From Halovivax gelatinilyticus (GTDB lineage Archaea; Halobacteriota; Halobacteria; Halobacteriales; Natrialbaceae), in the NCBI RefSeq assembly GCF_024300625.1, contig NZ_CP101322.1, positions 199,992 through 263,991 of the forward strand: a DNA stretch of 64,000 nucleotides, given 5' to 3'. A program made the translations under genes and the position numbers. Positions 699 through 39,171 of the stretch are shown here, piece after piece (position 1 is the stretch's first letter; every line of letters begins with the position of its first letter). Below the pieces are notes generated by a model, which was not told the DNA's origin, searched no databases, and worked only from the letters and a program-made list of their open reading frames with translations.

Positions 699-768
699 AG
701 TGTAGCCACCACCCCATCACGTAAAATGGACCCAGTGGTCCGAACGGAGAAACCGGAACCGTTCGGTC

Positions 769-1740: not shown

Positions 1741-1743
1741 TGT

Positions 1744-1760
1744 GTAATTAGATGTAATTA
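1744..1760. promoter_or_regulatory. Tandem GTAATTA repeats next to the PP-loop gene start
   Basis: GTAATTA occurs at 1744-1750 and again at 1754-1760, one helical turn apart, only a few bases upstream of the PP-loop protein start. The AT-rich direct repeat stands out from the GC-rich surroundings and could be a regulator site or part of the promoter/leader. No regulator can be assigned. Confidence 0.35.
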
Positions 1761-2023
1761 AGCGGGGTAAAACCCCCGGTTGTCGGCACAACGTTCCAGG
1801 CGTACTCCCACCGGCGACGGAAAAAGGTCTGCTGGCGCGGTGCACGCGCTGAGAGCGGGCGAAAGGGCCGATTGGCGAGTGGGCCACGAGCGGTAACGGC
1901 GGGAGACGGCCGAAACAGTCGATTCACCGCCGACGCGAGCGAGATCCGATTCGAGTACGACTCCTGTCGGACGAACCGAACGTCCGACGCAAAGTACTTG
2001 CCGGTGTGAACGAACGTCTGGGT

Positions 2024-2680: not shown

Positions 2681-2739
2681 AACGCGACGAGCGTCTGACC
2701 GTTTTCTACCGACTCTCCGAGTACTCGGTCCAGGCGAGG

Positions 2740-3963: not shown

Positions 3964-4144
3964 AGTATGTGTACCCGTATCAACCACCATACTCCTTTGG
4001 ACAGGCGCAACCCGAGGTGACTCGTCGGGACGTCGAGACGACGTGTCCGACCGGCGTGAGAGCGTTCGTTCGGGATGCAGGCTTCGGCCCGTCTGTCCGG
4101 GACGCGTACGCTTTTAGTCCGGCCGTCACATCTCACAGCACAGA

Positions 4145-5362
4145 ATGTCCCCCGACACCGAGAGAGGACCGATCTCGCTTCTGACACCCGAGGCTCGTTC
4201 TGCGCTCGACCGGTCCGGCTACGGCTCCTGGCGGGCCATCGCCACGGCAGACGCCGTCTCGCTGGCCTTCGGGTTTCCCTATCCCGAGTCGCTCCCGACC
4301 GCGCGCCTCCAGGAATCGACCGGCGCCGTCCTCGACGACGAAGGCGAACGCGCCCTCCAGTACGGCGGCGGCGCGTACGCCGACCGGCTACAGACGTGGG
4401 TCGCGAAGCGGGAAACCGACCGCGGCATCGATCTCACCGATCGAGACGTGCTTCTCACCAACGGCGCAACGCACGCGATCGACAGCGTCTGTCGTGCGTT
4501 CTTAGACCCCGGCGACGTCGTCGCCGTCGAGGCCCCGACGTTCATGGGATCGATCCGCGTCTTCGAGAACTTCGGCGTCGACGTCGTCGGGCTTCCGGTC
4601 GACGACCGGGGCCTCGATGTCGACGCGTTCGCGGACCGATTGGAGCGCGCTCGCGCCGCGGGCGATCCGACGCCGACGCTCGTCTACACCATTCCGAACT
4701 TCCAGAACCCGACGGGGACGACGCTGCCCGAAGGCCGCCGGGTTCGCCTGCTCGAACTCGCCGACGAGTACGACTTCGTCGTGCTCGAAGACGACGCCTA
4801 CGGCGATCTCCGGTACGAGGGGGAGCCGGAACGCCCGCTTTGCGCCCTCGACGAATCGGGGCGAGTGGTCCGTGTCGGATCGTTCGCGAAGACGATCGCA
4901 CCGGGGGTCAGACTCGGGTGGGTTGTCGCCCCGGATCCAATTCGCGACGCCGTCGACGCGCTGGCCGCCGGGGGAACGAACACGTTCACCCGCAGCGTCG
5001 TCGGCCACTACTGTGACGCCGGTCACTTCGAAGACGCGATGCCGGAGTTGCGGACAGCCTACGCCGACCGACGCGACGCCATCCTGGCGGCGCTTGCAAC
5101 GCACATGCCGGACGAAGCGACCTGGACCGAACCCGACGGCGGCTTCTTCGTCTGGCTCGAACTGGGCGACGACGTCGACACCGACGCGCTGCTCGAGGAG
5201 GCGATCGACGCCGGCGTCACGTTCCTCCCCGGATCGATGTTCTACCCCAACGACGGCGGGGAGAACGCGCTCAGGCTCTCCTTTAGCTACGCGGAGCCGG
5301 ACGAGATCGACGTCGGAATCGGCGCGCTGGCCGCGGCGATCGACGCCCACCGTCGGGGATAG
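4145..5362 (+). CDS. PLP-dependent aminotransferase, class I/II (2-aminoadipate/MocR-like)
   Basis: This 405-aa fold-type I aminotransferase has the pattern YTIPNFQNPTG (substrate/PLP contact), VVLEDDAYGDLRY (aspartate to the pyridine nitrogen) and GSFAKTIAPGVRLGW, where K249 forms the Schiff base with PLP. The C-terminal GGFFVWLEL block and an arginine in ALRLSFSY bind the substrate carboxylate. These features match the LysN / 2-aminoadipate aminotransferase / MocR-domain group, which handles aromatic, branched-chain or aminoadipate substrates. No HTH domain precedes it, so it is a free-standing enzyme and not a MocR regulator. A TTTTAGTC box about 30 bases upstream of the ATG is compatible with a short-leader transcript. 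Confidence 0.9.
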   Translation: MSPDTERGPISLLTPEARSALDRSGYGSWRAIATADAVSLAFGFPYPESLPTARLQESTGAVLDDEGERALQYGGGAYADRLQTWVAKRETDRGIDLTDRDVLLTNGATHAIDSVCRAFLDPGDVVAVEAPTFMGSIRVFENFGVDVVGLPVDDRGLDVDAFADRLERARAAGDPTPTLVYTIPNFQNPTGTTLPEGRRVRLLELADEYDFVVLEDDAYGDLRYEGEPERPLCALDESGRVVRVGSFAKTIAPGVRLGWVVAPDPIRDAVDALAAGGTNTFTRSVVGHYCDAGHFEDAMPELRTAYADRRDAILAALATHMPDEATWTEPDGGFFVWLELGDDVDTDALLEEAIDAGVTFLPGSMFYPNDGGENALRLSFSYAEPDEIDVGIGALAAAIDAHRRG

Positions 5363-5401
5363 GCCATTATATCGGATTGGGTGGTACGTAGCGATCCGAC
5401 C

Positions 5402-5557
5402 ATGACCATCAGGTGTCTCAACTGCGGGAAGACCGAATCGCTCAGTCGGTGCCACGTCCACCTGGACGGCAACCAGGTCGTCGAAGGCGACCTCTGTCGA
5501 GCGTGTCACGAACGCTTCGACCGGGCCGAGTGGGCGACGGTCGTCGACCGGGCGTAG
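5402..5557 (+). CDS. 51-aa zinc-finger microprotein
   Basis: A short frame directly downstream of the aminotransferase encodes MTIRCLNCGK followed about 28 residues later by LCRACHERF. The two C-x2-C knuckles form a plausible four-cysteine zinc site. It starts at ATG 5402-5404 and stops at TAG 5555-5557. The spacing of only ~40 bases suggests co-transcription with the aminotransferase. Haloarchaea encode many one-domain zinc-finger microproteins, mostly of unknown function. Retention of paired cysteines and acidic composition favour a real gene. Confidence 0.7.
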   Translation: MTIRCLNCGKTESLSRCHVHLDGNQVVEGDLCRACHERFDRAEWATVVDRA

Positions 5558-5749
5558 CGCCGCGTCCCACAGTACGGACCGACTATCCGTTGAGACGACG
5601 TTCGAGTGCCCGCTCGCACCGAGGACTCGGAGGCTCGCTCGAGGGGCATCGGCTCAATTCCGACGGCCTTGACCGCGTTTTCGTCGGCGACTCTCCAGCG
5701 CGCTCGCTGATGGCAACGAATATTACGATCCGAACGACAGCGTACAGAC

Positions 5750-7471
5750 ATGGTCCCGCAGCGGAACCCTCCTTCCCACGACGACCGCCTCCACCGGGTC
5801 GGTTCGACGGTCAGACGTCTGCCGGCCCGCACGCGCGAGCGGATCGCTCGCTCCGTTCCGAAATCAAAATCCGACCTGTGGCGGGCCGGCCGCGAGCGTA
5901 TTCGCATCGACACTCGCTCGCTGGCCGTCTTCCGGGTCTTCGTCGGACTGCTCGTCGTCGCCGACTTGCTACTCCGATCGCGAAGCTTCTCCTTTTTCTA
6001 CACCGACGACGGCGTCATCACCCAGGAGTTGGCGCGGCTGTACGCCCCCGATCACGCCGTTTCGATCTACTACTTCACGTCGGATCCGACGGTGATCGCC
6101 GGCCTGTTCGTTCTTCAGGGGCTGTTCGCCGTCCAGCTGATCGTCGGCTACAAGACGCGACTCGCGATGATCCTGACGTTTCTCGGCGTCATCTCGCTCG
6201 ACCACCACAACCCGCTGGTGTTGAGCTACGCCGACACGCTGTTCCGACTGCTTTGCTTCTGGGCGATCTTCTTACCGCTCGGCGAACGGTGGTCGATCGA
6301 CGCGCTCCAGCGCGAGCGCGCGCCGCGTCCGTCGGTCGCTAACCTGGCGACGCTGTTCGCGCTCTCGCAGATGGTGTTCATGTACGTCGTCAACGGGATC
6401 CACAAGACGCAGTCGCCGCTATGGCGCTCGGGCGAGGCGGCGCCGCTCGTCTTCGGGTTGGACGAGATGACGTTCCTGCTCGGTGATTCCTTCCGAGGGT
6501 TCGAGACGCTCTTGCAGATCGGCGGATTCACCTGGTTCGTCATGTTGCTGTTCGGCTGGTTGCTCATCGCCCTCCGCGGCAGGCCCCGACTCCTGTTGAC
6601 CGGACTGTTCGTCGGCGGCCACCTCTCGTTCGCGCTCACCGTCAGAATCGGCGCGTTCGCCTACGTCGCGCTGGCTGGGCTCACGCTCTTCTTGCAGGGA
6701 CAGTTCTGGCGCGACGGCGCGCTGGTAATAGATCGGCTGGGACTGTCTGCCCTCCCGGCGAAAATACAGTCGGGAACCAGTCGACCCGGACGGGCGCTCG
6801 CGACGGTACTCCCGACCCTGCGCGTCGAGTACGAGCCCATCGATCGGCTCCGTCGGGTGACCTACCGAGGAACGCTGACCGTCATCCTCGTGACCGTCCT
6901 CATCACCGCCCTCGTTGTACCCGTGCAGGCGATGGTGCTGTTGGATCAAGATCTGGACGAAGAAGAGCGATTCGAGAAGGCGGTCGAGGAGACGACCGGT
7001 ATCGAGTACGTCTACACCGTCGCGTCCAGTCTGGGGATCGACCAGCCCGCCTGGAGCATCTTCGCGCCGACTCCGCGGACGACGGACAGGTACTACGTCT
7101 TCCCCGCCCGGACGGTCGACGGCGAGCGAATCGACGTCTACAACGACGGCCGGCCGTTCACCTTCGACCGGGCCTACGACGAACTTCAGAAACAACACGG
7201 CACCTACCGCGAGCGCTTCTACATGAACAGCATTCGTCGGGCGACGGTCGTCACGGACGCCCCCGAATTGCTCGCCGACCACCTCTGTGAGACCTGGCCG
7301 GATGAACACGGCACCGAGCTTCGATCGATCGAGATGTTCGAAGTGACCGAGGACGTCACCTTCGAGACGATCGACGATCACGAAAATCGTGACCGGGAGT
7401 ACAGCTTCATCTATCGACACGGCTGCGGCGACTTCCCGGCCGAAATCGTCGCCATCCCGCCCGATCGGTGA
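5750..7471 (+). CDS. HTTM-domain membrane protein (vitamin K-dependent gamma-carboxylase-like)
   Basis: The 573-aa product has a basic N-terminus, then a set of membrane helices with the HTTM signatures: LAVFRVFVGLLVVADLLLR, a conserved FYTDDGV loop, and helices ending LDHHNPLVLSYADTLFRLLCFWAIFLPLG. HTTM proteins are related to vitamin K-dependent gamma-carboxylase, but prokaryotic members have no proven activity. After residue ~390 comes a further helix and a ~170-residue acidic soluble domain (starting near DQDLDEEERFEKA) that probably lies outside the membrane. Length and domain order are normal for haloarchaeal members. ATG 5750 was chosen as the first start ahead of the basic segment. 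It appears to be transcribed alone. Confidence 0.85.
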   Translation: MVPQRNPPSHDDRLHRVGSTVRRLPARTRERIARSVPKSKSDLWRAGRERIRIDTRSLAVFRVFVGLLVVADLLLRSRSFSFFYTDDGVITQELARLYAPDHAVSIYYFTSDPTVIAGLFVLQGLFAVQLIVGYKTRLAMILTFLGVISLDHHNPLVLSYADTLFRLLCFWAIFLPLGERWSIDALQRERAPRPSVANLATLFALSQMVFMYVVNGIHKTQSPLWRSGEAAPLVFGLDEMTFLLGDSFRGFETLLQIGGFTWFVMLLFGWLLIALRGRPRLLLTGLFVGGHLSFALTVRIGAFAYVALAGLTLFLQGQFWRDGALVIDRLGLSALPAKIQSGTSRPGRALATVLPTLRVEYEPIDRLRRVTYRGTLTVILVTVLITALVVPVQAMVLLDQDLDEEERFEKAVEETTGIEYVYTVASSLGIDQPAWSIFAPTPRTTDRYYVFPARTVDGERIDVYNDGRPFTFDRAYDELQKQHGTYRERFYMNSIRRATVVTDAPELLADHLCETWPDEHGTELRSIEMFEVTEDVTFETIDDHENRDREYSFIYRHGCGDFPAEIVAIPPDR

Positions 7472-7688
7472 GTCAATACCGCCCGTGACAGTACCATTTC
7501 CAGGCGGGTGAGTTGACGATCGACAATTGTGGCACCACCTTCCGAGTTCATTTCTCGTCAAAGCAGGTCTCGGTACACCGGAGTCGAGTGAAAACACCGA
7601 CCCATGTGACGGAGCGCGGGTGTGAGAGAACGTGAGTGACCGCGGGATGGCCCAAACGCTTATTCCACAGATATTTGATTGATTACGT

Positions 7689-8291
7689 GTGCTTGATAGG
7701 GTTCCACGCCGGCGTCTCATCCGAGCAAGCGGTTACGTCAGCGTGATCGGGGTCTTCGCTGGCTACATATACCGGGCGAGCAATCGAGGTATTCTACATC
7801 GAGTCAGAAGCGTTACCACGACTCCTACTATCGACTACACCGTCGCAGATGACCGGATCCAGGAAGCTCGCATCACCGGATCGGGATTCGACTTCAAACT
7901 CTGGTGGAACGATCTATCGTCTGGAACGAACGAGATTGCCGTGACCCTCCAGGCGGCACTGACGATCGGTGACGATGGCGTCGCTCAGATGGGAGAGATC
8001 GCACGAGGATCGTTTACGGTCGAAGGAACTGTCGGGGAGATACGGGCGTCGGAGATTCGATGGGATGAACCACTCTTTCCCGTCGATATCATCGACGCGC
8101 ACCCAGGAATCACCCCCGTCAAGCTCCACGAGACGATTCGACAGGCGAGTGAGGATAGCGAGCCAAGATTTCGGTTGCGATTTGAGTTCGACGAAGGAAG
8201 TGGATCGACCACGAAGACGACCATCACACGCCGCGCCCGTCTGCCTAGAAGCTATCTCCAGGAGGCGATGGCAGAGCGTCAATCGGGGTGA
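7689..8291 (+). CDS. Hypothetical membrane-anchored protein
   Basis: A 200-aa protein with one N-terminal hydrophobic segment (YVSVIGVFAGYIY) and a soluble remainder that looks beta-rich (alternating FKLWWN, IAVTLQAAL, FRLRFEF). I do not recognise the family. The GTG at 7689-7691 follows a CTTATT element about 28 bases upstream, consistent with a leaderless transcript. Codon use is less GC-biased than in flanking genes, which suggests a recently acquired or fast-evolving gene. The C-terminus overlaps a short antisense frame. Confidence 0.6.
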   Translation: MLDRVPRRRLIRASGYVSVIGVFAGYIYRASNRGILHRVRSVTTTPTIDYTVADDRIQEARITGSGFDFKLWWNDLSSGTNEIAVTLQAALTIGDDGVAQMGEIARGSFTVEGTVGEIRASEIRWDEPLFPVDIIDAHPGITPVKLHETIRQASEDSEPRFRLRFEFDEGSGSTTKTTITRRARLPRSYLQEAMAERQSG

Positions 8292-8461
8292 ACAGGTAGG
8301 TCACATCTCGGTGAACTCGACTGCGCTGACGTGTGGTCTGCTGGTTGGTCATCAGGTGAAGCCGTTTCGCGAAACAATCCTTCGACAACGGTGTATTCAG
8401 CCCAGCAGTCGACGACATCAGTCAGGGAAACATCACCCTCGAGTCTGACTGGGTTCATCAC
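8279..8461 (-). pseudogene. Possible short or remnant coding frame (60 aa)
   Basis: On the minus strand a frame starting GTG-ATG at 8461 encodes MMNPVRLEGDVSLTDVVDCW and ends at 8279, overlapping the convergent hypothetical gene. Reading upstream of the start, the same frame stays protein-like for another ~16 residues (YSGLWFHDLYDR) before a stop. This looks like the tail of a longer, broken gene. I recognise no family. Apart from this, the 277-base interval 8292-8568 shows nothing. Confidence 0.25.
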
Positions 8462-8568
8462 ACGGTCATACAGGTCGTGGAACCACAGCCCGCTGTACCC
8501 CCATACAGACCGCAGACCGTTCTACCAGGTTCGTTCGAGTTCGTAGCGTCGCGCTAAGGTCGGCGAAT

Positions 8569-10986
8569 TCACGTATCGTCACCGTCTGCGGTGGGGAGCG
8601 TAACCGAAAATGTCGAGCCCTCGCCCGGTTCGGACTCGACCCAGATGTCCCCACCGTGGCGTTCGACGATGCGCTTACAGAGTGCGAGACCGATTCCCGT
8701 TCCCGCGCGTCCGTCCCGGGCGTGCAGGCTCTGGAACACTTCGAAGACCCGCTCTCTGTCGTCCGGGTCGATGCCGATCCCCTCGTCGGCGACTGAGACG
8801 GTCACCTCTGAGCCGTTGTGCACGGCCGAAATCTCCACCCGTGGCGGTTCGTCGCTGTACTCGATCGCGTTCGAAAGGAGGTTCTGGAATAACTGGCGTA
8901 ACTGCCCTGGATCGCCCTCGACGCGAGGCAGCGACTCGACCGTGAGCGTGGTACCGGTCTCTTCGATCTTCATCTCGAGGTCCCGACGAACGTCTTCGAT
9001 AACGACCTCGAGATCGATCGGCTCGAACGGGTCGCCGCGCCGTTCGACTCGCGAGTACGCGAGCAACCCCTCGATCATGTCACGCATCCGCTGGGCGCCG
9101 TCGACGGCGAAGTCGATGAACTCCGCACCGTCCTCGTCGAGCTCGCTCGCGTAGCGGCGCTCGACCAGCTGGAGGTAGCTCGTGACCATCCGCAGGGGCT
9201 CTTGCAGGTCGTGTGATGCGGCGTAAGCGAACTGTTCGAGGCGCTCGTTGGATGCTTCCAGCCGCCGCTCGAACTGTTTGCGCTCGGTGATATCGGCCAG
9301 GGCGCCGGGAAACGACACCGGCGTCCCGTCTTCGTCGTACTCGACGTGACCGCGCGCAACGACCCAACGAAGGTCGTCGTCTGCGTCCCGAACGCGGTAC
9401 TCTTCTTCGTACGCCTCCCCCGATTCGACGACGTCCTCGATCGTTCGTCGGACTCGCTCCCGATCGTCGTCGTGGATGGCCGAGATGAACTGATCGAGCG
9501 GTACGCCCTCGGTCGCCGCCTCGGGATCGATCCCGTACTTCTCCGCGAAAGATGCGCTGGTTACCATCCGGTCATCGGGAATGTGCCACTCCCACGTCCC
9601 GACGGCACCGGCTTCGGCCGCCGCCTCCAGGCGCTCTTTCGTCTCCTCTAGGTAACGCTCGCGTTCGACCCGCTCGGTTACGTCGTTCGCCGCTCCGACC
9701 CACCCGGCGAGTTCGCCATCCTCGTCGAAGAGCGGCGTTGCACGAGAGACGAACCAGCCGACGGTACCGTCGTCACGAACGGTCCGGTGTTCCAGCTCGA
9801 AGCTACGTTTCGTCCGAATGGCCCCGTCGATGGCGTCCCGAACTCGCGGCTGGTCTTCGGGTGGGATATTCTGTTCGATCCACGACGACCGTCGCTCATC
9901 GGTGCCGGATTGGAAGTTCGCCCCTTCTAACGTCTGCACCTCGCTCCAATCTGCGTTCGTCGTGAACACGACGTCCGAGGTGGTGGTGACCAGCGCGCGA
10001 AATCGTTCTTCGCTCTCTCGCAACTGTTCGTACGCCTCTCGTTTCGCCTCTCGTAACAACTCCTGTCCGCGCAGGACGATGTCCGAGGCGAGCTGTATAT
10101 CCGTCTCGTCTCGGTCCTGCAGGAGCTCCTGGTCGCCTTCCGCCTGCAGTTCCTGGACGATCGGCGTGATGTCCTCGACGCTGTGGATGATGTAGTCGAG
10201 GGTTCCAGCCGCGTCGAACACCGGCGAATTGATCGGATTCCACCAGCGTTCCTCGAATTCGTCGCCGTCGGCGTCGCGAGCGGGAATCGGGTAGTGCGTA
10301 ACCGACATGACGTCGGCAGCCCCGGTCTCCGCGACGGTCTCGAGCGACTCGCGGAGGTTCTCGACGCCGTCGGCCGGGTCCTCAGGGTTGTTCGGAAAGA
10401 TCTCGAACAGCGATTTTCCCAGGATCTCCGACCGATCGGTCATCGTCGCGTCCAGATACGCATCGCTCACGGCAACGATTTCGTACTCGTCGGGCTGGAC
10501 GATGAGATAATTGCCGGGTACGTTCTCGAACAGTCGACGAAAGGTCGCTTCGGTGGCCTCCGTTGCCGTCCGGTTTCGTCCACCACGTTCGCGAACGACT
10601 CCGAGCGATCCCTGCCCGGTTTCGCCCGCGTCGAGTGCGGTCACTCGAACCTCACAGCGAACGTGGTTCCCCCCGGCGGTCTCCACGCTGAGATCGAGGA
10701 CCTCGCGCTGGTCGGCGTCGTTCGATACGTGACGGTCGAGTTCGCGTTCGATCCGCTCGCTGTCGTCACCGAACAGGACGGACACGCGCTCGCCGAGGAG
10801 CTCCTCACGCGAGTATCCGGTCAGATCGACGATGGCGTCGTTGACCGAAACGAGGCGGTCGTCGGCGTCGAGTCGATAGATCCCGTCGTCGATCGTCTCG
10901 ACGAGGGCGTGATAGTACTCGAGGGCCTCGGTGTCGTCCGTTTGCCCCCAGAACGGTTTTTCAGAAGCCCCCGCCCGGTCACCCAT
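8569..10986 (-). CDS. Multi-PAS sensor histidine kinase
   Basis: An 805-aa cytoplasmic sensor kinase with no membrane segment. It contains about four PAS/PAC domains (residues ~25-140, 145-275, 325-445 and 455-575), separated by a helical linker near 275-325. A HisKA domain follows with the phospho-acceptor histidine in AASHDLQEPLRMV. The HATPase domain has an intact N box (QNLLSNAIEYS), G1 (DEGIGIDPDD) and G2 (GTGIGLALCKRIVERHGG). It should autophosphorylate in response to redox, light or small-molecule signals sensed by the PAS domains. No response regulator lies beside it, so it is an orphan kinase, as is common in haloarchaea. I start at ATG 10986 (MGDRAG); an ATG three codons upstream is equally possible. 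Confidence 0.92.
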   Translation of the reverse strand: MGDRAGASEKPFWGQTDDTEALEYYHALVETIDDGIYRLDADDRLVSVNDAIVDLTGYSREELLGERVSVLFGDDSERIERELDRHVSNDADQREVLDLSVETAGGNHVRCEVRVTALDAGETGQGSLGVVRERGGRNRTATEATEATFRRLFENVPGNYLIVQPDEYEIVAVSDAYLDATMTDRSEILGKSLFEIFPNNPEDPADGVENLRESLETVAETGAADVMSVTHYPIPARDADGDEFEERWWNPINSPVFDAAGTLDYIIHSVEDITPIVQELQAEGDQELLQDRDETDIQLASDIVLRGQELLREAKREAYEQLRESEERFRALVTTTSDVVFTTNADWSEVQTLEGANFQSGTDERRSSWIEQNIPPEDQPRVRDAIDGAIRTKRSFELEHRTVRDDGTVGWFVSRATPLFDEDGELAGWVGAANDVTERVERERYLEETKERLEAAAEAGAVGTWEWHIPDDRMVTSASFAEKYGIDPEAATEGVPLDQFISAIHDDDRERVRRTIEDVVESGEAYEEEYRVRDADDDLRWVVARGHVEYDEDGTPVSFPGALADITERKQFERRLEASNERLEQFAYAASHDLQEPLRMVTSYLQLVERRYASELDEDGAEFIDFAVDGAQRMRDMIEGLLAYSRVERRGDPFEPIDLEVVIEDVRRDLEMKIEETGTTLTVESLPRVEGDPGQLRQLFQNLLSNAIEYSDEPPRVEISAVHNGSEVTVSVADEGIGIDPDDRERVFEVFQSLHARDGRAGTGIGLALCKRIVERHGGDIWVESEPGEGSTFSVTLPTADGDDT

Positions 10987-11056
10987 GGACACCATGAGAG
11001 CCTCGATTCAGATAAGCTCCGTGCCTAAACCCTCGGTGCGCTACGCTGAGTCGACA

Positions 11057-11083
11057 GTAATCCGATCGAGGCGGTCGGATTAC
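11057..11083. repeat. Perfect 9-bp inverted repeat upstream of the kinase gene
   Basis: GTAATCCGA (11057-11065) and TCGGATTAC (11075-11083) are perfect reverse complements separated by 9 bases. The element sits 70-100 bases upstream of the histidine kinase start, in the 460-base gene-free interval 10987-11455. It could be an operator or a transcribed hairpin. Confidence 0.5.
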
Positions 11084-11185
11084 CTCGGAGACGATGTCGT
11101 TCCACACGGACTGTTTCGGGCACCGTCGGAGATCGGTATCTGAGTGAACGGGCCACCGCGTCATAATTCATCGCCCACACCAGTA

Positions 11186-11193
11186 GATATAAG
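11186..11193 (+). promoter_or_regulatory. TATA-like box ahead of the structured element
   Basis: GATATAAG lies 25-32 bases before the first base-paired position (11218) of the structured element. An archaeal TATA box at this place predicts transcription starting around 11213-11217, exactly at the foot of the stem. Confidence 0.45.
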
Positions 11194-11214
11194 CCGTCTT
11201 ACGATCAACTCGTT

Positions 11215-11304
11215 GACGGAAGCCGCGCTCTAACGGGGTAGAAATGCCCCGGGTGCTGAGACACCCAGGGCGCGGCTTCCAAAACCCACACACAGGGTTT
11301 TTGG
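11215..11304 (+). ncRNA. Candidate structured RNA: three-way junction plus terminator-like hairpin
   Basis: An 11-bp perfect stem (GGAAGCCGCGC 11218-11228 with GCGCGGCTTCC 11270-11280) encloses two adjacent hairpins. P2 spans 11234-11251 (GGGGTA/TGCCCC closed by a GAAA tetraloop). P3 spans 11251-11266 (GGGTG/CACCC with a 6-base loop). Immediately after, AAAACCC (11281-11287) pairs with GGGTTTT (11295-11301), ending in a T-run. With the TATA-like box upstream this makes a complete promoter-RNA-terminator unit in a gene-free interval. The GNRA tetraloop and zero-length P2/P3 linker are RNA-like features. An alternative is the right end or omega-RNA-like remnant of an IS200/IS605 element, but no TnpA/TnpB remnant is visible nearby. 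Confidence 0.5.
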
Positions 11305-11455
11305 TCGCCATGATTGCGTACACACTTCCGAGACAAAAAGGTCTCGCACGCTCGCGGTACGGAGAGTCGAATCGCTCCCCCTCGTTCGGTTTAGATTTCT
11401 CGAGTCGGGGTGGTATCTCTCGTTGGTGGATGGAACGACGGTACCGGAGGGGAGC

Positions 11456-11680
11456 ATGAAAGCGATCGCGGAGATCGTCGCGTCGATCGACGACCGACCC
11501 GACCGCGAGTGCTATCGGTGTGATCGCGACGTTCCCGGCGACCAGCTCTGTCGACTCTCCTTTACGGTGTCCGATTCGCTGGCGGATCGATACGAATCGG
11601 TATCGCGGCCGTGTTGTATCGACTGCGCGGCGGCGCTCGGGATGCTGGAACTGACGGACTGGATAGATGAGAATCGGTGA
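11456..11680 (+). CDS. Small zinc-ribbon protein (74 aa)
   Basis: A short acidic protein with two paired-cysteine knuckles, CYRCDRDV (residues ~20-27) and CCIDCAAAL (~52-60), which together can bind one zinc. The ATG at 11456 is fixed by a strong ribosome-binding sequence, GGAGGGGA, ending just upstream of the start; this is unusual among the many leaderless genes here. Proteins of this shape are common conserved haloarchaeal hypotheticals. The 204-base interval downstream belongs to the next operon's promoter. Confidence 0.75.
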   Translation: MKAIAEIVASIDDRPDRECYRCDRDVPGDQLCRLSFTVSDSLADRYESVSRPCCIDCAAALGMLELTDWIDENR

Positions 11681-11789
11681 TTAATTCGAATGCAGTTATA
11701 CTTCTAGTGGTGTGCAGGTTTATATCGGAATTAGGCGGGTAGTGTTTCGTAGATGACTTCCAACATTTGCGAAGAACTATGCAGACGTG

Positions 11790-11821
11790 TTCCTAATAGG
11801 AAATATATGCCTAATAGGAAA
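11790..11821. promoter_or_regulatory. Paired operator repeats flanking a TATA box
   Basis: CCTAATAGGAAA occurs at 11792-11803 and 11810-11821, an 18-bp phase. The first copy lies in a perfect palindrome, TTCCTA-A-TAGGAA (11790-11802); the second (TGCCTA-A-TAGGAA) has one mismatch. The only TATA-like stretch, AAATATAT (11801-11808), lies between and overlaps them. A dimeric repressor bound here would block the promoter of the following nucleotidyltransferase/HEPN operon. The N-terminal HTH of the first gene is the obvious candidate. Confidence 0.65.
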
Positions 11822-11884
11822 GGGTCGGTGACGATCGCACTGTAGCACCCGTTTCCTGACGAGCGGATCTTCCGGTATCAGGCG

Positions 11885-12475
11885 ATGCAAGACCTTCTGT
11901 CCGTTCTCATCGATCAGCCGTACGACGAGTTCACGGGCAGTGAACTCGCTGCCCTGATCGACGCCGATCGGTCGACCGTCTCGAAGGCCGTTTCGCTTCT
12001 CACGAGCGTCGACGCGGTAGAGACGCGTCGAGACGGCCGAAAGCGGTTCGTGCGCGTAAACCGTGATCGTCTATCCAAACCCGATCCGATCCTGTCGATT
12101 GCACAGACCGAATTTCATCAACCCGTCCACGCATTCGTCGAACGGGCTCGTGAAAATCTCGACACATTGGCCGGAATCGTCCTCTTTGGAAGCGTCGCCC
12201 GAGGGAACGCCGATCGAGCGAGCGACATCGATCTCCTCGTGCTCGTAGCGGAAGATAAAACGGCTGCACGACGGACCGTCCAGTCCATCGTCAGGGAACT
12301 CGAGGAAACGACGTTCGACGGGGACCGATATACGTACCAGCCGTTGGTCGAATCCACCGAAAGCGCACGGAGAATCGGTGACCGGCTTCGGGAACAGTTC
12401 AACGAGGGGATTACGCTCGTCCCCTCGGACCAGCTTACCGACGTGAGACGGGAGGTGTACGCCGATGGTGAATAA
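11885..12475 (+). CDS. HTH-nucleotidyltransferase (MNT-type) antitoxin-like protein
   Basis: The 196-aa protein has an N-terminal winged HTH (residues ~1-60; ELAALIDADRSTVSKAVSLL is the recognition unit). A minimal nucleotidyltransferase domain follows, with the signature GIVLFGSVARGNADRASDID (G-S-x10-D-x-D; both metal-binding aspartates present), and then a helical tail. MNT/HEPN pairs act as toxin-antitoxin modules in which the MNT protein adenylylates or shields the HEPN RNase. The downstream HEPN-like gene overlaps by 11 bases, so translation is coupled. The fused HTH plus two operator repeats upstream strongly suggest autoregulation. No in-frame start exists between ATG 11885 and the preceding stop. 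Confidence 0.82.
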   Translation: MQDLLSVLIDQPYDEFTGSELAALIDADRSTVSKAVSLLTSVDAVETRRDGRKRFVRVNRDRLSKPDPILSIAQTEFHQPVHAFVERARENLDTLAGIVLFGSVARGNADRASDIDLLVLVAEDKTAARRTVQSIVRELEETTFDGDRYTYQPLVESTESARRIGDRLREQFNEGITLVPSDQLTDVRREVYADGE

Positions 12476-30239: not shown

Positions 30240-33200
30240 TCAGGCCAGCCACTCCTCGGGCTTCGTATCGTAATCGACGTCGTCCGCCGCGAGGTGCGAG
30301 ACGGCATCCCATTCGACGCGCTGGACCGACTCCTGCTCGCCGTCGTAGCGCAGCAGGATTCCACGTTCTTCGGGCGTCGGCTCGCGGTTGCGCCGTTTTG
30401 CGACCTCGACGTCGTGGTCGTCGATCTCCTTTCTGATCGTCAGCAAGTTCACCGGCCGACCCCAGAGTTCGAACAGTCGCTCGAGTACGTCCTGGGCCTG
30501 CGCGAAGTCGAGTTCGATGCCGTTGTACTCGTGTTCTAAGAGGAGTTCGCCGGCGTTGGCGTAGTTGCCGTCGGCGACGGTAATCGTGGGCTTCCCGAAG
30601 TTCGTAAACTGTAAGAGAAGTTTACGTTTGACGTCGTCGGGGTCGGTGCTCGCAACGTGGAACTGACCCGTCGCGCGCGAGTACTCGTAGGTGAAGTAGT
30701 CGTTCGTTCTGATGAACTCCGGCGTGAGAAACTCGTCTAAGAACGTGACGTCGTTGTGACTCTCCCGGACGTCGTACAGTCGATCCCAGCCCGCGGTGAA
30801 CGTGACGTGTTCTACCGCCTCGTCGACGGTGGCGTAGCGTGCGTCGTCGAAGAGGTAGCGATCGATCCGCTCGAGTTCGTCCCGCGAGATTCGCGAGAGG
30901 ACGCCCCGGTTGGCCGGTTTGACGAGCGAGTACTGTCGTCGGGCGAGTCCCTCGTAGGTCAGTACGCGCCACGGGTGGCGGTAGACGTCGATGTCGCCCG
31001 CCCGTGCCGCGGCGAGGGCGTCCTGATCGACCCACGTCGACGGCACCGACTCGAGTTCGTCGAGCGAGCCATCCGAGATAGAAGCGATCGGTTCCGGCGG
31101 TTCGAGCCGAGTCAACACGTCCTCGAAGTCGACCTCGTCGCGCAACGTCCGCCAGGAAATGCCCTCGACTCGCAGGAGCTGTTCGACGACGTCGCGCCGG
31201 TTCGTTACGTTCTCGATGTAGCGCCAGAGCTTCACTCCGAGACTGTAGGGATTGAGTCCCGGCGACGCCAGCACGCTCGACATGTGATCGGCGTACTCGA
31301 AGACCTCGTCGTCGCCAGCGAACGCCTCGTCCGCCATCATCTTCGACTCCCAGTAGGAGTTGTGGTTTATCAGCCCAGCTGCGGCGTAGCGATGCGTTTC
31401 TTCGACGGAGATGTCGTACACCGTCCCGGACGACGTCTCGACCGAGACGATTTCGTCGGTCCACGTCTCAGCTTCGAACCACGAAAGCGCGTCCACGTAC
31501 GATTCCAGCGCGTTCGACTCCCTGTCGTATCCGAACCCAATTTCCTCGGCGAACAGATTCGCCGATCGGCCGGTTACGTGGACGTGGTAACAGCCATCTG
31601 ATTGCTCGCGCCGACGACCGAGGATCCCAAAGTTCGTCAAGAGAAGAAGTACCGTCTGGCTCAGGTCCGAACTCGACGTCGAGAGGATCGCTCCTTGCTG
31701 CCCGGCGTGGCCGTCCGCGTCGAAGAGTCCACGGAGGAACTCCGCTACGACCGGTTTCGGTGATCGGAGAATGTGCTCGGGAACCGTCTTGACCGACGCG
31801 GCCTTACCATCAGGTAGACCAAGTTCCTCGAGCAAGCAGTCTACGAGCGCTCGAGAGTAACAATAGACGCGCCATCTGGATCCCTGTTGCTCGACAGTTG
31901 GCTCGACCCCGAACAGCTCGTCGACCAGCCCGGCGAACTCTTCGGCATGTGCCCGAGTTGCGTTTGTAAAGCCGACCTGTCCGGCAGCGGACGACACGTG
32001 TCCATCACCAACTAGAAGGCCGAGGAAGCGTCCGAACGACTCGTCCACGACGTTCGGAACGAGAATCGGTGTTCGCTGTGCGAGGTCCTGTCGCTCCCCG
32101 TTGTACTGTTCGAGGGCTTGTTCGATTGCGTCGGACTTCCGTGCCCGGCCAGTGCGTCGGTATCTAAGGACCGTCCAGACAGATACCCCGGCTTCCTCAG
32201 CCACGTCGTCGAGCGTGATGTACTCCGCCGGCTCCCACCCGATCGAGGCATATGACGACGGCCAGACGCCGTTCCCGCCAGAAATTTCGATTTCGTCGCC
32301 GAGGTCAAGTTCGTCCAGTCGGACCCACGATCCGTCAGGGCGTCTAATTCGATGGTTGTTCGACCCGGTGAGTTCGAATCCGCGACGCGTTTCGATCGTG
32401 ACCGTATCGTGGTCCGGGATTACGTTCGAGTCGTAGACCGCCTGTGCGGCCTCTCCGTCGGACACGGTGGGGTGTTCGTCGACGACCTCCGACATCCGAA
32501 CCAATCCCTGGGTGGTAAATACGGGCGTGTCCGGAGCGACACAGGCCCACCCCTCGTTCATCACCTTCGTCATCTTCTGCGGGGCGAAGTAGTACGCCTC
32601 CTCGCGCAGCATTTCGAGGATATCCTGCTGCCAGTCGGTCATCTCGACGGCTCGGTCTTCCTCGCGATCGTACTGCTTTCCGTACTCGCGGACGAACCCG
32701 AGGACGTCGGATTCGGGCGTGTTCGGTTCACCGTCCCGTTCGGCGTCTGCCTCGCGGGCGTCGAGCCACTCGTCGTCGAACACCTGTGAGGTCACCTCGG
32801 GCGAGAGTTCGAGCGCCTCCAGTTTCTCGCGGAGGTCGTCGTCCAGCTCTTCGGGGTCGGTTTCGCGAACCAGTCGCTCGCGGTAGGTTCGGTGCTGGTC
32901 GATCGTATCTTCGAGCGTGAGAACGTGATCGATCCAGCGTTCGACCTCGCCGCGATCGATCTCGGGGTCGGACATGTAGGCTTCGATCGTACGGGCGTGA
33001 CGTTCGAGCATCGCGGCCGCGTCGACGGCGTCGGCGTCGGATCGAGCGTCGGTGAACAGGCCGAACCACTCGTTGTTCGCGAAGAAGTCGGCGTGGGCTT
33101 CGACGTGGGTGATCACCGCCTTCTGATCGGCAAGCGAGTTCGACTCCTGTAAGAACGCGTGCGATGGGTTGTCGTTGTTGACGATCTCGAACGCCCTGGC

Positions 33201-33440
33201 GCCGGTGTAGCGGTCTTGCTTTCGCTGGCGATCGTACTGCATTCCCCACCGCCAGTGCGGGTAGCGTCGCTGGAACCCGCCGTAGGCGATCAGCTCGTTC
33301 ATCTCGTCGTAGTCGACGATCCAGTAGTTGACCGGGTACGGCTCCAATCCAAGCCTCTCGGCGAGTTCGCGAGCGGCTCGAACCGGTTGCTCGAGATCGG
33401 TTGCGATCGCTCGCTTTCGCATGCGGTCTGAGTCGCTCAT
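30240..33440 (-). CDS. spoVR: SpoVR family protein interrupted by an intein
   Basis: The 1066-codon frame encodes a 671-aa SpoVR host protein split by a 395-aa intein (residues 300-694). The N-extein holds the SpoVR landmarks YPVNYWIVDYDEMNELIAYG and YFAPQKMTKVMNEGWA; the C-extein continues SYWESKMM and HPWRVLTYEGLARRQYSLVK. The intein sits exactly within the near-invariant EGWA-SYW motif. SpoVR proteins accompany PrkA-type kinases and DUF444 proteins, here the three preceding genes, in stress- or sporulation-related operons of unknown mechanism. I start at ATG 33440 (MSDSDRMRK), 57 bases after the yeaH stop. Unless the intein splices out, SpoVR would be disrupted. Confidence 0.93.
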   Translation of the reverse strand: MSDSDRMRKRAIATDLEQPVRAARELAERLGLEPYPVNYWIVDYDEMNELIAYGGFQRRYPHWRWGMQYDRQRKQDRYTGARAFEIVNNDNPSHAFLQESNSLADQKAVITHVEAHADFFANNEWFGLFTDARSDADAVDAAAMLERHARTIEAYMSDPEIDRGEVERWIDHVLTLEDTIDQHRTYRERLVRETDPEELDDDLREKLEALELSPEVTSQVFDDEWLDAREADAERDGEPNTPESDVLGFVREYGKQYDREEDRAVEMTDWQQDILEMLREEAYYFAPQKMTKVMNEGWACVAPDTPVFTTQGLVRMSEVVDEHPTVSDGEAAQAVYDSNVIPDHDTVTIETRRGFELTGSNNHRIRRPDGSWVRLDELDLGDEIEISGGNGVWPSSYASIGWEPAEYITLDDVAEEAGVSVWTVLRYRRTGRARKSDAIEQALEQYNGERQDLAQRTPILVPNVVDESFGRFLGLLVGDGHVSSAAGQVGFTNATRAHAEEFAGLVDELFGVEPTVEQQGSRWRVYCYSRALVDCLLEELGLPDGKAASVKTVPEHILRSPKPVVAEFLRGLFDADGHAGQQGAILSTSSSDLSQTVLLLLTNFGILGRRREQSDGCYHVHVTGRSANLFAEEIGFGYDRESNALESYVDALSWFEAETWTDEIVSVETSSGTVYDISVEETHRYAAAGLINHNSYWESKMMADEAFAGDDEVFEYADHMSSVLASPGLNPYSLGVKLWRYIENVTNRRDVVEQLLRVEGISWRTLRDEVDFEDVLTRLEPPEPIASISDGSLDELESVPSTWVDQDALAAARAGDIDVYRHPWRVLTYEGLARRQYSLVKPANRGVLSRISRDELERIDRYLFDDARYATVDEAVEHVTFTAGWDRLYDVRESHNDVTFLDEFLTPEFIRTNDYFTYEYSRATGQFHVASTDPDDVKRKLLLQFTNFGKPTITVADGNYANAGELLLEHEYNGIELDFAQAQDVLERLFELWGRPVNLLTIRKEIDDHDVEVAKRRNREPTPEERGILLRYDGEQESVQRVEWDAVSHLAADDVDYDTKPEEWLA
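31359..32543 (-). mobile_element. Intein with LAGLIDADG endonuclease and LacI-like HTH in SpoVR
   Basis: A 395-codon in-frame element. N-splicing block A starts at Cys1 (CVAPDTPVFTT); block B is GSNNHRIRR (intein residue 64 is the His). Block F is TVYDISVEETHRYAAAGL and block G is INHN, followed by Ser+1. All class 1 catalytic residues (C1, B-block His, penultimate His, Asn395, Ser+1) are present. Two LAGLIDADG motifs, FLGLLVGDGHV (~173-183) and FLRGLFDADGHA (~269-280), keep their acidic residues, so a homing endonuclease is probably functional. Between block B and the endonuclease lies ITLDDVAEEAGVSVWTVLRY (109-128), closely like the LacI DNA-binding helix-turn-helix. GC content seems slightly lower than in the exteins. 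Confidence 0.93.
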
Positions 33441-33497
33441 CGGTCGGTCCCCCACTCGTCGATCGGTCGGCGATAGCACCGTCCGCCCGTGGTGAAT

Positions 33498-34820
33498 TCA
33501 CTCATTGGCGTCACTCTCCGTGCTCAGTATCTCGTAGATCGCGTCGGCGACATCGTCGGCCGAGTTGACGTACGCGACGGCGACGTCCTCGGCGTCGGCA
33601 CCGAAGTGTTTCTCCAGTTCCTCAGCGTGGGTCGCGTTGATCGCGTTCCCACTCGGCTGGGTCTCGACGTAGGCGTGGAGGTTCGCGTCGATCTCTTCCA
33701 TCATCGGAATCACGCGCTCGCCCGTATCGTTCGAGGAGTTCTCCGAGTCGCCGGCCGCGAAGACGTACCGGTTCCAGTCGCTCCACGGGTACTCAGAGAG
33801 GACCTCGGCCGCCAGGTCGTACGCGCTCGATATCTTCGTCCCGCCACCCGATCGGATCCCGAAGAAGTCGGATCGGTCGACCTCCCAGGCCTCGGCGTCG
33901 TGGGCGATGTATACGAACTCCGCGGTGTCGTACTTCCCCGTGAGGTACCAGTCGAGCGGCGTGAACACGCGTTCGACGAGTTCTCGCTTCGTCTCGCGCA
34001 TCGACCCCGATACGTCGCGAATGTTGACGACGACAACGTTTCGCTCGCGCTCTTCGACGATTTCGGGGTGACGATAGCGCTCGTCTTCGCGTCTGAGCGG
34101 GACGTGTCCGATACCGTCGCGGCGAATGCGCTGGTTGATCGGCTCGCGGTCGACGGACGATTCGACTTCGGCGATCGACGACCACCGGCCCCGCTCGTCG
34201 GCGACCTCGTCGTGGGCCCGCTCGATCCAGCCCATCGAGACCGGTAAATGCTGTTCGCGCGCCCACTCGAAGACCTCCCGGGGCGAGATCCCCTCGACCT
34301 TGCAAACCTCGCGAACGAAGTCCTCGTCGAACGCCATGGAGAGCTTTCGCTTCAGTCCCTCGCGGAACATGCGTTCGACGTCGAGCGTGCTGTCCGGACC
34401 GGAGCGGGTGATGTCGGTGAACGGCCCCTCCGTCTCCTCGACGACGGTCTTTCCCTTCGGTTCGAGGTCGAGTCCGAGTTCCTCGTCGAGTTCCTGGGCG
34501 AACTCCTCGGGATCCATCTCGTAGTACTCGTGATCGCCGCCCTCTTCGCCCGGCTCGCCATCTTCCTCGCCGTCGCCCGGCTGCGGCTGCGGCTGGCCAA
34601 CCGGCTGTCCGACGTCGGGAGCGCCGTCTTCACCCTGACCGACCCCGCCCCGGTCGCGTCGGTCGTACTCGAACTGCGGGAGCGAGACGATCTTGACCGG
34701 GATCTTGATCTCGTCCGCGCCGCTGCGGCCCAGATCGCCGTACTGGATGAAGTCGGACAGGTCGGCGCGGTTGTCCTCGCCGACCGTACGAAACCGTTCG
34801 AGGTCGTCTTTCAGCCCCAT
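33498..34820 (-). CDS. yeaH: DUF444 / YeaH-YhbH family protein with von Willebrand A-like domain
   Basis: A 440-aa protein. The N-terminal half is a charged linker with a Gly/Gln/Pro-rich segment ([21 protein letters not shown]) typical of DUF444. The C-terminal vWA-like domain has the MIDAS sequence NIRDVSGSM (DxSxS) and a threonine in [14 protein letters not shown]. YeaH occurs with PrkA/YeaG and SpoVR; it may be a kinase partner or substrate-binding scaffold. It overlaps the upstream prkA-like gene by ten bases. The gene-order conservation with both bacteria and archaea makes the family certain, the role unknown. Confidence 0.93.
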
Positions 34821-37099
34821 CGTGCGGTCACCTCGCGCATGACGTGTCGACTCGTCAGTTCGGCCGACGCGCGCGAGTAGCCGTACGAGTCGACCAGGTG
34901 GTCGATCGTCGCCTCTTTCACCCGCTCGGTCTCGGTGTCACTCGGCGGGTCGTCCCAGGCGGCCGGGTCCAGATCCGGGAAGTGACGCTGGACGTCGTCC
35001 CAGTCGTGGCTCTCGAGGACGTCCGTGAGGACGGGTATCGCGGTGAGGTCGGCGTCGCTGGCGGAGAACTCCTCGTCGCGGTGTTCCCAGGCGTAGCGAT
35101 TCAGCGCCGTGATAACGTTCTCCCGGCGGAACCGGCAGACCTCGTCTGTCGGCCGGTTGGCCTCGTAGTCCGATTCGTCGAAGCGGCCGAGCTGTTCGAC
35201 CTCGAAGAGCTTCATCTTCAGCGGATCGGGCTCGATCGGATCGCCGCGCTCGTCGGCGAGGGATTCGCCCGTCTCCCACGCGTAGACGTGTTCGACGTAC
35301 TCCGAGACCGTCTCCTCGTCGACGCGTTGGTCGTGACAGATCGCCTCGATCACGTCCGCCTCCTGGCGTTCGAAGACGTACTCGGCGACGGGGACGACCC
35401 GCGATTCGAACTCGGATTGCTCGCCGGTCGAAAACAGCGGTTCGGCAGACAGCCCCTCGACCATGGCGTCGATCACGTCGCTCGGCATCACCACGTCCTC
35501 GACGTCGAGCGTCGGGTGGTACCGATCTCGGTCGTCCTGGAGGAGTTCGGCGATAACGTCGCGCGTGTACGTTACCGGGATGCCGTGGGTCCCGTCGGGT
35601 GCGTCGTCGTCGAACTCGAACTCCTCCTTCTCGACGCGGTCGTCGCCGACCTGCAGATACCCCTGATCGAACACGAGCGCCTTGTCGACCAGATTCAGAT
35701 CCGAGGGGACATCGTCGCTCGCGAGGCGCGTCACGACGGCGTACAGCGCGGCCACGTCGATCGCGTGCGGGGCGAGTTCGCGCTCTCTGACGGAGCCGGT
35801 TTCGTCCTTGATCGAGATCGAAAGTGGCTGGCGGACCTTCCGGGCGAGTTCGTCAGGATCGGTGGTCGTCCAGACGGACGTTTCGTTCGTCAACTCCCGG
35901 CGGACGAGTTCGGCCTCCATCGATCGGTTCGTCAGGTAGTGGAATCGTCGTTTGTTCAACCGGCGTTTGAGCGCCTTCAACGGGTCGAGACCGTTTCGAT
36001 CCGCGTGCTGGTCGAGTTGCGCCTCCAGGTCGGGATTCGAGATAATCAGCAGCTGCGTGTCGACGTCCATTCCGATCCCCTTATCGAGCTTGACGGTCCG
36101 CTCGTCGGGCACGTTGAGCAGCTTCTGTAGCAAGTCGGCGTGCTGGGAGGCGTCCTCGACGATGGTCAGGACGCCGTTTCCCTGCGATAGCACGCCGTCG
36201 TAACTGAACGCCTGCGGATTCTTCCGACCGCGGGAGTCGAGTTCCTGGAGCATGCCGTGCATCCAGGAGCCGACGAGCCGTTCTTTTGGCGTGCCGTCGT
36301 CCTCGGCGTGGAGGACGCCGATGCCGCTCCCGACGTCGACGACGTAGTTTTTCACCCGAAGGTGGGTCTCGTCGGTGATCGCCGAAAACAGCGAGTCCGT
36401 CCCCTGTCGTCGGTAGCGCTCTTCTAAGTAGTCGTAGGCCTCCCGCGAGAACGGGTCCAGTCCGGTGTCGACCCGGATCGGCACGTGATCGCCCACGTTT
36501 TCGTTCAATCCCGAGAGGATGTCCTCGCGCACCGGCTCGGGAAAGACCGAGAGTGGGTGGGTCTGGACCGGGCTCTCGAACCAGTGTTCGTCGTCGGTCG
36601 CGGTCGGGTCGACGCCGTAACTGAGTCCTCGGTCCTCGGCCGAGGCCGTCCGGACGTTCCACTCGATCGTATATCGCCGACCCTCTGGCGTCTTCGAGTA
36701 CTCGCGGAGTCCGTTGATCAGACAGCGCTTGAACTCGGATTTGCCCGTCGCGGTCGGCCCCTCGAACCAGATGATGGTCTCTTCTTTCCCCCGACCGGCC
36801 GCGATCGCCCGGAGGTCGTCGACGAACGCGTTCAGCACCGGGGTGTTTCCGAGGACGGCGTGCTCACCGTCGTTGTACGGATCGTCGAAGAACCGATAGC
36901 GCTCGCGGTGTTCGCCCTCTTCGAGGACGGTTCGCGTACCGGCCGCCTCGATCGCGTCGAGAACGTACTTCGAGGCGTGGGCGGCGACGGTCGGGCGTTC
37001 GAAGAGGTGGTCGACGAACGACTCGATGTCCATCGGTTCCTCGTAGGTCTCTTCGAGGGTTCGATCTGCGTCCGCGACGTAGTCGGTTCCACGGCTCAT
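34811..37099 (-). CDS. Second PrkA-like AAA+ serine protein kinase
   Basis: A 762-aa PrkA-family protein. An AAA+ N-domain carries Walker A GPTATGKS (residues 114-121) preceded by IIWFEGP; later comes a DEDASQ-type region ([20 protein letters not shown]) and a C-terminal PrkA domain ([20 protein letters not shown]). It is more divergent than the adjacent PrkA and has the unusual P-loop TATGKS where family members have PVGSGKS. The two may work as a pair, as paired prkA genes recur in haloarchaea. It overlaps its upstream neighbour by four bases and yeaH by ten. Confidence 0.9.
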
Positions 37100-39171
37100 T
37101 GCTCCTCGATCTCGTCTCTGGCCACCTCGGCGCCGGCGAACTCGAGCACCTCCTTGGCCCCCGGTTCCGAGTAGCCCTGTTCTATCAGCGCGTCGATCCA
37201 GGCGGAGCGCTCGTCGTCGTCGATCTCTCCCGCGCTGACCAACGCCGAGAAGTTGATGTTGTGCTTTTTGTCCTCCCAGAGTTTGCGTTCTAAGGCGCGT
37301 CGGAGCCGCTCGTTGTCGGTCGGATCGAACGCCTCGCCCTCGCGGGCGCGCCGAGACACCCAGTTCGAGACTTCCTGTCGGAAGTCCTCTTTCCGATCGG
37401 ACGGGATGTCGAGTTCCTCTTCGACGGCCCGAAGGAAGGTCTCGTCCGGTTCTTGCTCTCGACCCGTGAGCTCGTCCTCGATGGTCGCGTCGTCGATGTA
37501 GGCCATGACGTGATCCATGTACTTTTCACCCTGTCGTTGGATCTCCTCGACGTCGTAGGCCAGCGCGTTGCGGACGTCCTCGATCGCTCGTTCGCGGTAC
37601 TCCTCGCGGACGCGCTCGAGATAGCGGTAGTAGGTGTCGAACTCCGATTCCGGGATCGAGCCGTGGTGTTCTACGTTCTCTTCGAAGAAGTTGAACACCG
37701 TCAGCGGCGAGAGGTACTCGCGGCCGCGGTGTTTCGAATCCATTATCGCTTCGGCGATCTCGTCGCCGATGAACCGCGGGGAGACGCCGACCATCCCCTC
37801 GCCGATCTCGGCGACCTGGTCGGCTTCCTCGCGGAGCTTCTTCACGTCGACGTCCTCGCTCTCGTCGATCTCTCCGTTGTACGCCTTGGCCTTCGCGAGT
37901 AAGTCGATCCGATCGCTGTCAGGTTCCTCGATCCGCGTGAGAACGCCGAACAGCCCCGCCATGGTCAGCGTGTGCGGTTCGACGTCGATGTCGGGGACGT
38001 CGGCGTTCTCCAGCATCTTCTCGTAGATGCGCGCTTCGTCCTCGTAGGACAGCACGTACGGGAAGTCGATCCGCTTCGTGCGGTCGTTGAACGCCTCCAT
38101 CTTCTCGTCGCCCTTCTTGTCCTTGTACTCGGGCATGTTCGTCCGGCCGACGATCACCTGGTCGATGTCGATCCGGGGGTTGTTCTTCGGTTTGATCGTC
38201 TGCTCCTGCGTCGCGTGCAGGAAGTCGTAGAGGAACTCGCGCTGGAGTTTTAACAGCTCCTCACCCGAGAAGATGCCCCGGTTCGCGTTACAGAACGCGC
38301 CGGAATAGTCGAACGCCCGCGGGTCGGACTCGCCGTAGACGGCGATCTTCGAGTAGTTGACGTCGCCGGTGAGTTCGGTCTCGTCCTGATTCTTCTTGTC
38401 TTTGGGTTCGAACGTCTCGAGACACTGGCGCTTGTTCTCGTCGGCGACGAGTCTGACGATCTCGACGTGGTTTTCGAGGACGGCTTTGAGATCGTCGTCG
38501 TACTTCGCGAGCAACCGATCCATGTAGAACTCGCTCTCGGGATCTAACGCCTGCTCGTTCTGGATCGTATACGGGGCGTCCAGAGACTCGTTCATCGCGT
38601 CGATCACCTCCTGGCGCTGTTCTAACGGGAGCAAGACCAGCGGATCCTGATTCATCGGCGATCGAACGACGTCGTCGGCCGGATCCTGGTCTTTGATCAC
38701 GTCACAGAGGTTCGTCCAGCGGAAGGTGTACATCCGACCCTCATCCTGGAGCGTGTACGCCTCGAAGTACCGACGGAGCTGTCGATCGAAGTGTGATTTC
38801 CCCGATCCGACGGGGCCGAGGAGGAGTTTGATTCGTCGCTCCGGTCCGAGCCGGCGCGACCCCGACTTTACCTTGTTGACGAATTCGTGGATCGCCTGGT
38901 GGACGACGCGACCGTAGAACGTGTTCTCGCCGTCGCCGAGCGGATCGATCGAGGCGAGGTGATACTCGACGACCCCGCGCGACTCGTCGTAACTGGTTCC
39001 ATAGAAGTCGAACATGTCCGCGACCCGCTGGTGGGCGTTGCGGGCGATCTTCGGATCGGCCGTGACTTCGTCTAAGTACCAGCTGAACGGCTTCGAATCG
39101 CGAAGGTCGGCTGGCATCGATTGCTGGTAGGCGGTACTTATCTGTTCGAGCGTGTCGGTGTCACCGGTCAT
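37096..39171 (-). CDS. prkA: PrkA/YeaG-type serine protein kinase
   Basis: A 691-aa protein with AAA+ domain (Walker A GPVGSGKSH, 119-127), the sensor sequences VIVGRTNMPEY and FIGDEIAEAIMDSKHRG, and a C-terminal PrkA kinase domain with FNFFEENVEHHGSIPE. PrkA proteins autophosphorylate and respond to nutrient or other stress; some act as AAA+ proteases rather than kinases. It leads the operon prkA-prkA2-yeaH-spoVR, all joined by overlaps or short gaps. The large upstream interval (39172-39756) holds its promoter, perhaps including a TATA core enclosed in an inverted repeat. Confidence 0.93.
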   Translation of the reverse strand: MTGDTDTLEQISTAYQQSMPADLRDSKPFSWYLDEVTADPKIARNAHQRVADMFDFYGTSYDESRGVVEYHLASIDPLGDGENTFYGRVVHQAIHEFVNKVKSGSRRLGPERRIKLLLGPVGSGKSHFDRQLRRYFEAYTLQDEGRMYTFRWTNLCDVIKDQDPADDVVRSPMNQDPLVLLPLEQRQEVIDAMNESLDAPYTIQNEQALDPESEFYMDRLLAKYDDDLKAVLENHVEIVRLVADENKRQCLETFEPKDKKNQDETELTGDVNYSKIAVYGESDPRAFDYSGAFCNANRGIFSGEELLKLQREFLYDFLHATQEQTIKPKNNPRIDIDQVIVGRTNMPEYKDKKGDEKMEAFNDRTKRIDFPYVLSYEDEARIYEKMLENADVPDIDVEPHTLTMAGLFGVLTRIEEPDSDRIDLLAKAKAYNGEIDESEDVDVKKLREEADQVAEIGEGMVGVSPRFIGDEIAEAIMDSKHRGREYLSPLTVFNFFEENVEHHGSIPESEFDTYYRYLERVREEYRERAIEDVRNALAYDVEEIQRQGEKYMDHVMAYIDDATIEDELTGREQEPDETFLRAVEEELDIPSDRKEDFRQEVSNWVSRRAREGEAFDPTDNERLRRALERKLWEDKKHNINFSALVSAGEIDDDERSAWIDALIEQGYSEPGAKEVLEFAGAEVARDEIEEQ

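Follow-up and report, generated by a model that had tools for sequence, protein, structure and literature searches.

Among described systems, the archaeal VMA inteins (TliVMA and PhoVMA; PDB 7qss, 7qsu and 7qst) are the best fold and profile matches to the element reported here. They have in common with it a Hint domain and a nested LAGLIDADG endonuclease, but are only about 20% identical to it and are hosted by the A subunit of the V-ATPase. The haloarchaeal MCM (cdc21) inteins are likewise mobile and inserted at conserved sites, and co-conversion of their +1 residue to Ser has been documented (PMC10643990), but their host is a replicative helicase and their insertion site is a different one. 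The 24 known haloarchaeal intein alleles (PMC4071816) come from the same class of organisms and are patchy too; they occupy 13 host genes, most of which belong to DNA metabolism, and SpoVR is not among them. Host family and conserved motif are shared with a mini-intein of a huge phage (LR756504.1), which differs by its length of only 129 aa, its lack of an endonuclease and its insertion at NEG↓C (the arrow marks the insertion point).

The window analysed here, a 64,000-nucleotide stretch of the Halovivax gelatinilyticus genome, contains a SpoVR gene that is almost certainly interrupted by a full-size intein of class 1 that moves through homing and targets a single site of SpoVR, NEGW(A/S)↓S. 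SpoVR is apparently both a new host and a new allele for a known kind of element, as a prior sequence-only reading had supposed: no description of SpoVR together with an intein was found in the literature searched (outside subscription papers and intein databases), and no SpoVR-intein model turned up in the NCBIfam scan, though models for other intein hosts exist. SpoVR lies outside the DNA-metabolism genes that usually host inteins, and what is unusual about its intein is the span over two domains of life and phages, together with a readable mark at position +1.

All window coordinates given below are on the minus strand. The SpoVR precursor is a single open frame of 1079 aa (30240-33479), composed of an N-extein of 312 aa (32544..33479) that ends in VMNEGWA, the intein, and a C-extein (30240..31358) that begins with SYWESK and holds the SpoVR_C region and the stop codon. 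Both flanks of the insert match SpoVR (Pfam 1.1e-73), on the N-extein side over residues 28-314, and the assignment of the host rests on this PF04293 match as well as on its neighbours, a DUF444 (YeaH-like) gene at 33498..34820 (Pfam 2e-108) and a PrkA-family kinase gene at 34811..37099 (Pfam PrkA 5.2e-32). The PrkA/DUF444/SpoVR operon has been described, as has a second PrkA-type kinase in its haloarchaeal versions (PMC3102087); an open frame directly upstream of PrkA (37096-39171) is possibly that second kinase. Counted from the GTG start, the joined exteins amount to 684 aa and 79.8 kDa, somewhat more than the ~76 kDa first estimated for the spliced protein. Near-invariant residues of SpoVR besides NEGWA are H125, H129, N308 and E309, and a sequence search found no solved SpoVR structure.

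The intein (31359..32543) is a stop-free insert of exactly 395 residues that starts with C-V-A-P-D and ends with I-N-H-N, followed by S-Y-W; the junction codons read AAC GAG GGG TGG GCC, then TGT ... AAC, then TCC TAC TGG. The translation upholds what the sequence-only reading had proposed, namely an in-frame insert with the class 1 residues C1, H394, N395 and Ser+1, placed inside the most conserved SpoVR motif at the NEGWA↓SYW junction. Together with the block B His, these residues and the precise in-frame insertion are those of a class 1 intein. That the insert is an intein is agreed upon by profiles, an AlphaFold model, PDB matches and homologues at the identical site. Pfam gives Intein_splicing (1.7e-9) and LAGLIDADG_3 (1.1e-20), and the NCBIfam models intein_Nterm and intein_Cterm match exactly at residues 1 and 395 with E 1e-3 each, the latter above and the former below its curated cut-off. 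The AlphaFold model of the 395 residues is confident (pLDDT 92.5) and has the Hint fold; in the PDB it is matched best by endonuclease-bearing VMA inteins (E 1e-24), while PI-PfuI, PI-SceI and I-DmoI rank lower. A model of the whole precursor (pLDDT 78, pTM 0.50) is too weak for placing the intein in a SpoVR active site. Its named matches in a viral fold search were other types of intein- or endonuclease-bearing proteins, with no SpoVR among them.

Within the intein, the N-terminal half of the splicing domain (residues 1-95; 32259..32543) contains C1 and a block B of the form S61-N-N-H64, in which Ser, also found in most relatives, replaces the usual Thr. The C-terminal half (residues 356-395; 31359..31478; intein_Cterm) carries block F, VYDISVEETHRY, and block G, LINHN↓S. 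The endonuclease domain nested between them (residues ~165-350; 31494..32051), recognised by LAGLIDADG_3 and by fold matches to I-DmoI and the VMA intein, has two LAGLIDADG motifs, GRFLGLLVGDGH at 31998..32033 and FLRGLFDADGH at 31707..31739. Both keep their acidic residues, D180 and D277, as had been noted from the sequence, and a conserved site of the host is occupied. The first splicing half is separated from the endonuclease by a domain of three helices (111-149 in the AlphaFold model), whose weak LacI/HTH_17-like helix-turn-helix match (residues 108-133; 32145..32222) stays under the curated cut-off in the case of Pfam LacI (2.1e-4). GC3 is 0.70 in the intein versus 0.81-0.83 in the exteins.

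The precursor would be made as one chain of 1079 aa, from which the Hint domain, by means of C1, the block B His, H394, N395 and the extein Ser+1, would cut out the 395 residues and ligate the exteins, restoring the conserved NEGWA-SYW motif. Once freed, the intein is predicted to act as a LAGLIDADG endonuclease with an extra helix-turn-helix and to cleave empty spoVR alleles at the conserved site; repair would then copy the intein in, along with short flanking DNA able to bring the required Ser+1 codon. Sequence establishes the architecture and the site of the element, its conservation and patchy distribution, the existence of degenerate copies and the conflict between intein and host trees; we infer that splicing and DNA cutting take place in H. 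gelatinilyticus.

Full-length homologues at the identical SpoVR site occur in dozens of genomes, which excludes a chance insertion. SpoVR is present in 351 of the 391 Halobacteria sampled, and 21 of the 391, the window's own genome included, carry a full-length intein in it, the others being 61-75% identical to the window copy; one more copy is split by a contig break, and there is one fragment. Named carriers include Natrinema, Natribaculum, Halorussus, Halospeciosus, Halovenus, Halomicrobium, Halorubrum, Halonotius and Halorutilus. The same intein is found at NEGWA↓S of SpoVR in Myxococcota (16/331 sampled genomes), Planctomycetota (8/343) and a small group around genome G393 (4/5). The named bacterial copies derive from metagenome bins; the SpoVR halves around them, however, are bacterial and stand apart from the archaeal ones in the host tree, which argues against stray archaeal contigs. 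Plasmids gave partial endonuclease-type matches only. This breadth, which extends to phages, as well as the degenerate copies, the helix-turn-helix and the +1 pattern, goes beyond the sequence-only reading. Several single loci deserve mention. In Natrinema pallidum (G034; L025/L125) the SpoVR gene is broken across two contigs inside the intein, and in G310 (L108/L012) the SpoVR sequence that directly precedes the intein is aberrant (DEMSDDDGGPTTKVMNEGWA) and lacks part of the domain, through either an assembly error or a real deletion. A split SpoVR match in G323 was rejected as a second intein on account of a frame break with one TGA inside, and no second intein was seen in G310 and G114, candidates by their long open frames, which were not read through.

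SpoVR is uninterrupted in all four sampled genus-mates, where the site is contiguous and reads NEGWA-ALW; NEGWA is contiguous also in the other uninterrupted alleles examined. In a tree built from the host parts of SpoVR in 67 haloarchaeal rows (22 intein alleles and 45 empty ones), the window groups with the four genus-mates at support 100, and 15 changes of intein state are needed over the tree. Since the genus-mates are empty and the window's SpoVR belongs with theirs, the simplest account is that the H. gelatinilyticus lineage acquired the intein. The genus-mates could serve as natural targets for a test of cutting. Neither of the two refuting conditions named by the sequence-only reading was borne out: close relatives are without the segment, and their site is contiguous, as is EGWASYW in other haloarchaea. 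Among the uninterrupted alleles sampled, EGWA-AYW is commoner than EGWA-SYW. One empty allele (L059, G193) has SYW amid AYW relatives, either natively or as the footprint of a lost intein.

All 52 copies have C1, H64, D377, H394 and N395 without variation, and every copy at NEGWA↓S is followed by Ser+1, while each of the catalytic residues D180 and D277 is kept in 48/52. Three copies are decayed or shortened in the endonuclease and have lost the catalytic Asp and Lys: these are of 264 aa (L175-L178; G398, G399), 378 aa (L204/L207; G813) and 324 aa (L205/L206; G773). In two further copies just one of the catalytic Asp residues has changed, and the short copies have no helix-turn-helix. Invariant splicing residues combined with the loss of some endonuclease residues form the pattern of an element obliged to splice and free to lose mobility. 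The breadth of the allele allows homing to be followed in phages and two domains in three states (full, degenerate and empty). All copies are open in frame with invariant intein splice residues, and an RNA intron was rejected on these grounds. An inserted domain that stays in SpoVR or merely cleaves it, or a BIL/Hedgehog-like Hint, is very improbable: N395, Ser+1 and all other splicing residues are kept in every copy, those with a decayed endonuclease included, the segment is wholly absent from close relatives, and the insert breaks a NEGWA motif that is contiguous in uninterrupted SpoVR.

It is a possible, if rather doubtful, alternative that the intein splices but is immobile here, with an inactive endonuclease and vertical inheritance, given that several relatives are clearly degenerate and that activity cannot be read from sequence. 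The window copy, however, keeps all catalytic endonuclease residues, and dN/dS in the endonuclease part of close relative pairs is roughly 0.1 to 0.16, like that of the splicing part; in one Halorubrum pair, dN and dS are 0.055 and 0.474 for the endonuclease versus 0.063 and 0.444 for the splicing part. Purifying selection on the two parts is similar, and with all sampled genus-mates empty, the gain in the window lineage was probably not ancient. We consider it unlikely that the intein is regulatory, keeping SpoVR inactive until stress (salt, redox) allows its conditional splicing. The site inside conserved NEGWA, whose importance is suggested by other near-invariant residues, would fit such a role, as would the cysteine at position 1 and the stress or sporulation link of bacterial homologues of the operon genes; but patchy presence, many empty relatives and disagreement with the host tree have the look of a selfish element. 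An intein mobile by homing is the reading that we prefer.

A class 1 intein requires a nucleophile at +1, and Ser+1 is required for splicing of this one. The +1 residue is Ser in 22/22 haloarchaeal intein alleles of the tree, while the 45 empty alleles, a non-random sample, have Ala (30), Ser (12), Thr (2) or Val (1). Phylogenetically independent pairs associate Ser with the intein by 6.8 to 0 on average, and never the reverse (median p 0.016), a correlation that is partly expected from the need of Ser+1 for splicing. The first 18 bases after the window intein (TCCTACTGGGAGTCGAAG; 31341..31358), a possible co-conversion tract, have 5-8 differences from the empty genus-mates and 1-2 from intein-bearing relatives; over bases 31-120 downstream, the genus-mates are on balance closer. 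Homing likely brought in the Ser codon by co-conversion, in a short tract of few bases, comparable to the +1 change reported for the MCM intein (PMC10643990). The Ala/Ser alternation at +1 offers a readable mark for co-conversion.

The window intein and that of the myxococcal bin CSSed165cm_511 share 59% identity, the best archaeal-bacterial value, while their host parts share 40%, and intein identity exceeds that of the host protein in all comparisons of the window with bacteria. Halobacteria are separated from the rest by a branch of about 0.43 changes per column in the intein tree, against 2.06 in that of the host protein, even though the end branches of the intein tree are no shorter than those of the host protein. 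Host and intein trees disagree: 15 of 17 Myxococcota form one group in the host tree, whereas a single myxococcal clade is rejected for the intein (AU p 0.007), whose careful tree places archaeal copies beside myxococcal ones with moderate support (81 to 85). The higher intein identity across domains and the nesting of archaeal inteins beside myxococcal ones make a transfer between Archaea and Bacteria very likely, and the tree, which has no known root, suggests that it went from bacteria to archaea. With one allele shared by archaea and bacteria at a single site, how inteins cross domains becomes a testable question.

Phages also carry this allele. IMG/VR contigs, one of them of 335 kb, encode a SpoVR that carries it at NEG(F/L)A↓S, with 37-38% identity to the window intein; on the 335-kb contig, SpoVR is accompanied by PrkA and DUF444 as well as by genes for ribonucleotide reductase, PhoH, dUTPase and endolysin. 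Five of the 79 phage SpoVR loci fetched have the intein at this site (two of them being the same phage), and nearly all others are contiguous. In an annotated phage collection searched by tblastn with the intein, no SpoVR intein was found, the matches being other inteins, mostly of phage DNA polymerase or terminase (22-26%). That one allele passed between Archaea and Bacteria with SpoVR-carrying giant phages as its reservoir and carriers can be put forward only tentatively. The mini-intein of LR756504.1 (L157; 2908-4821) is inserted two residues ahead of the main site, so the motif is a repeated target, and NEG↓C is a second insertion site in SpoVR. The whole PrkA-DUF444-SpoVR operon was met in one phage case, a giant phage contig (L153; IMGVR_UViG_3300025121_000011, 230-11887) with free-standing homing endonuclease-like genes between the operon genes and an intein-like insert in its ribonucleotide reductase as well.
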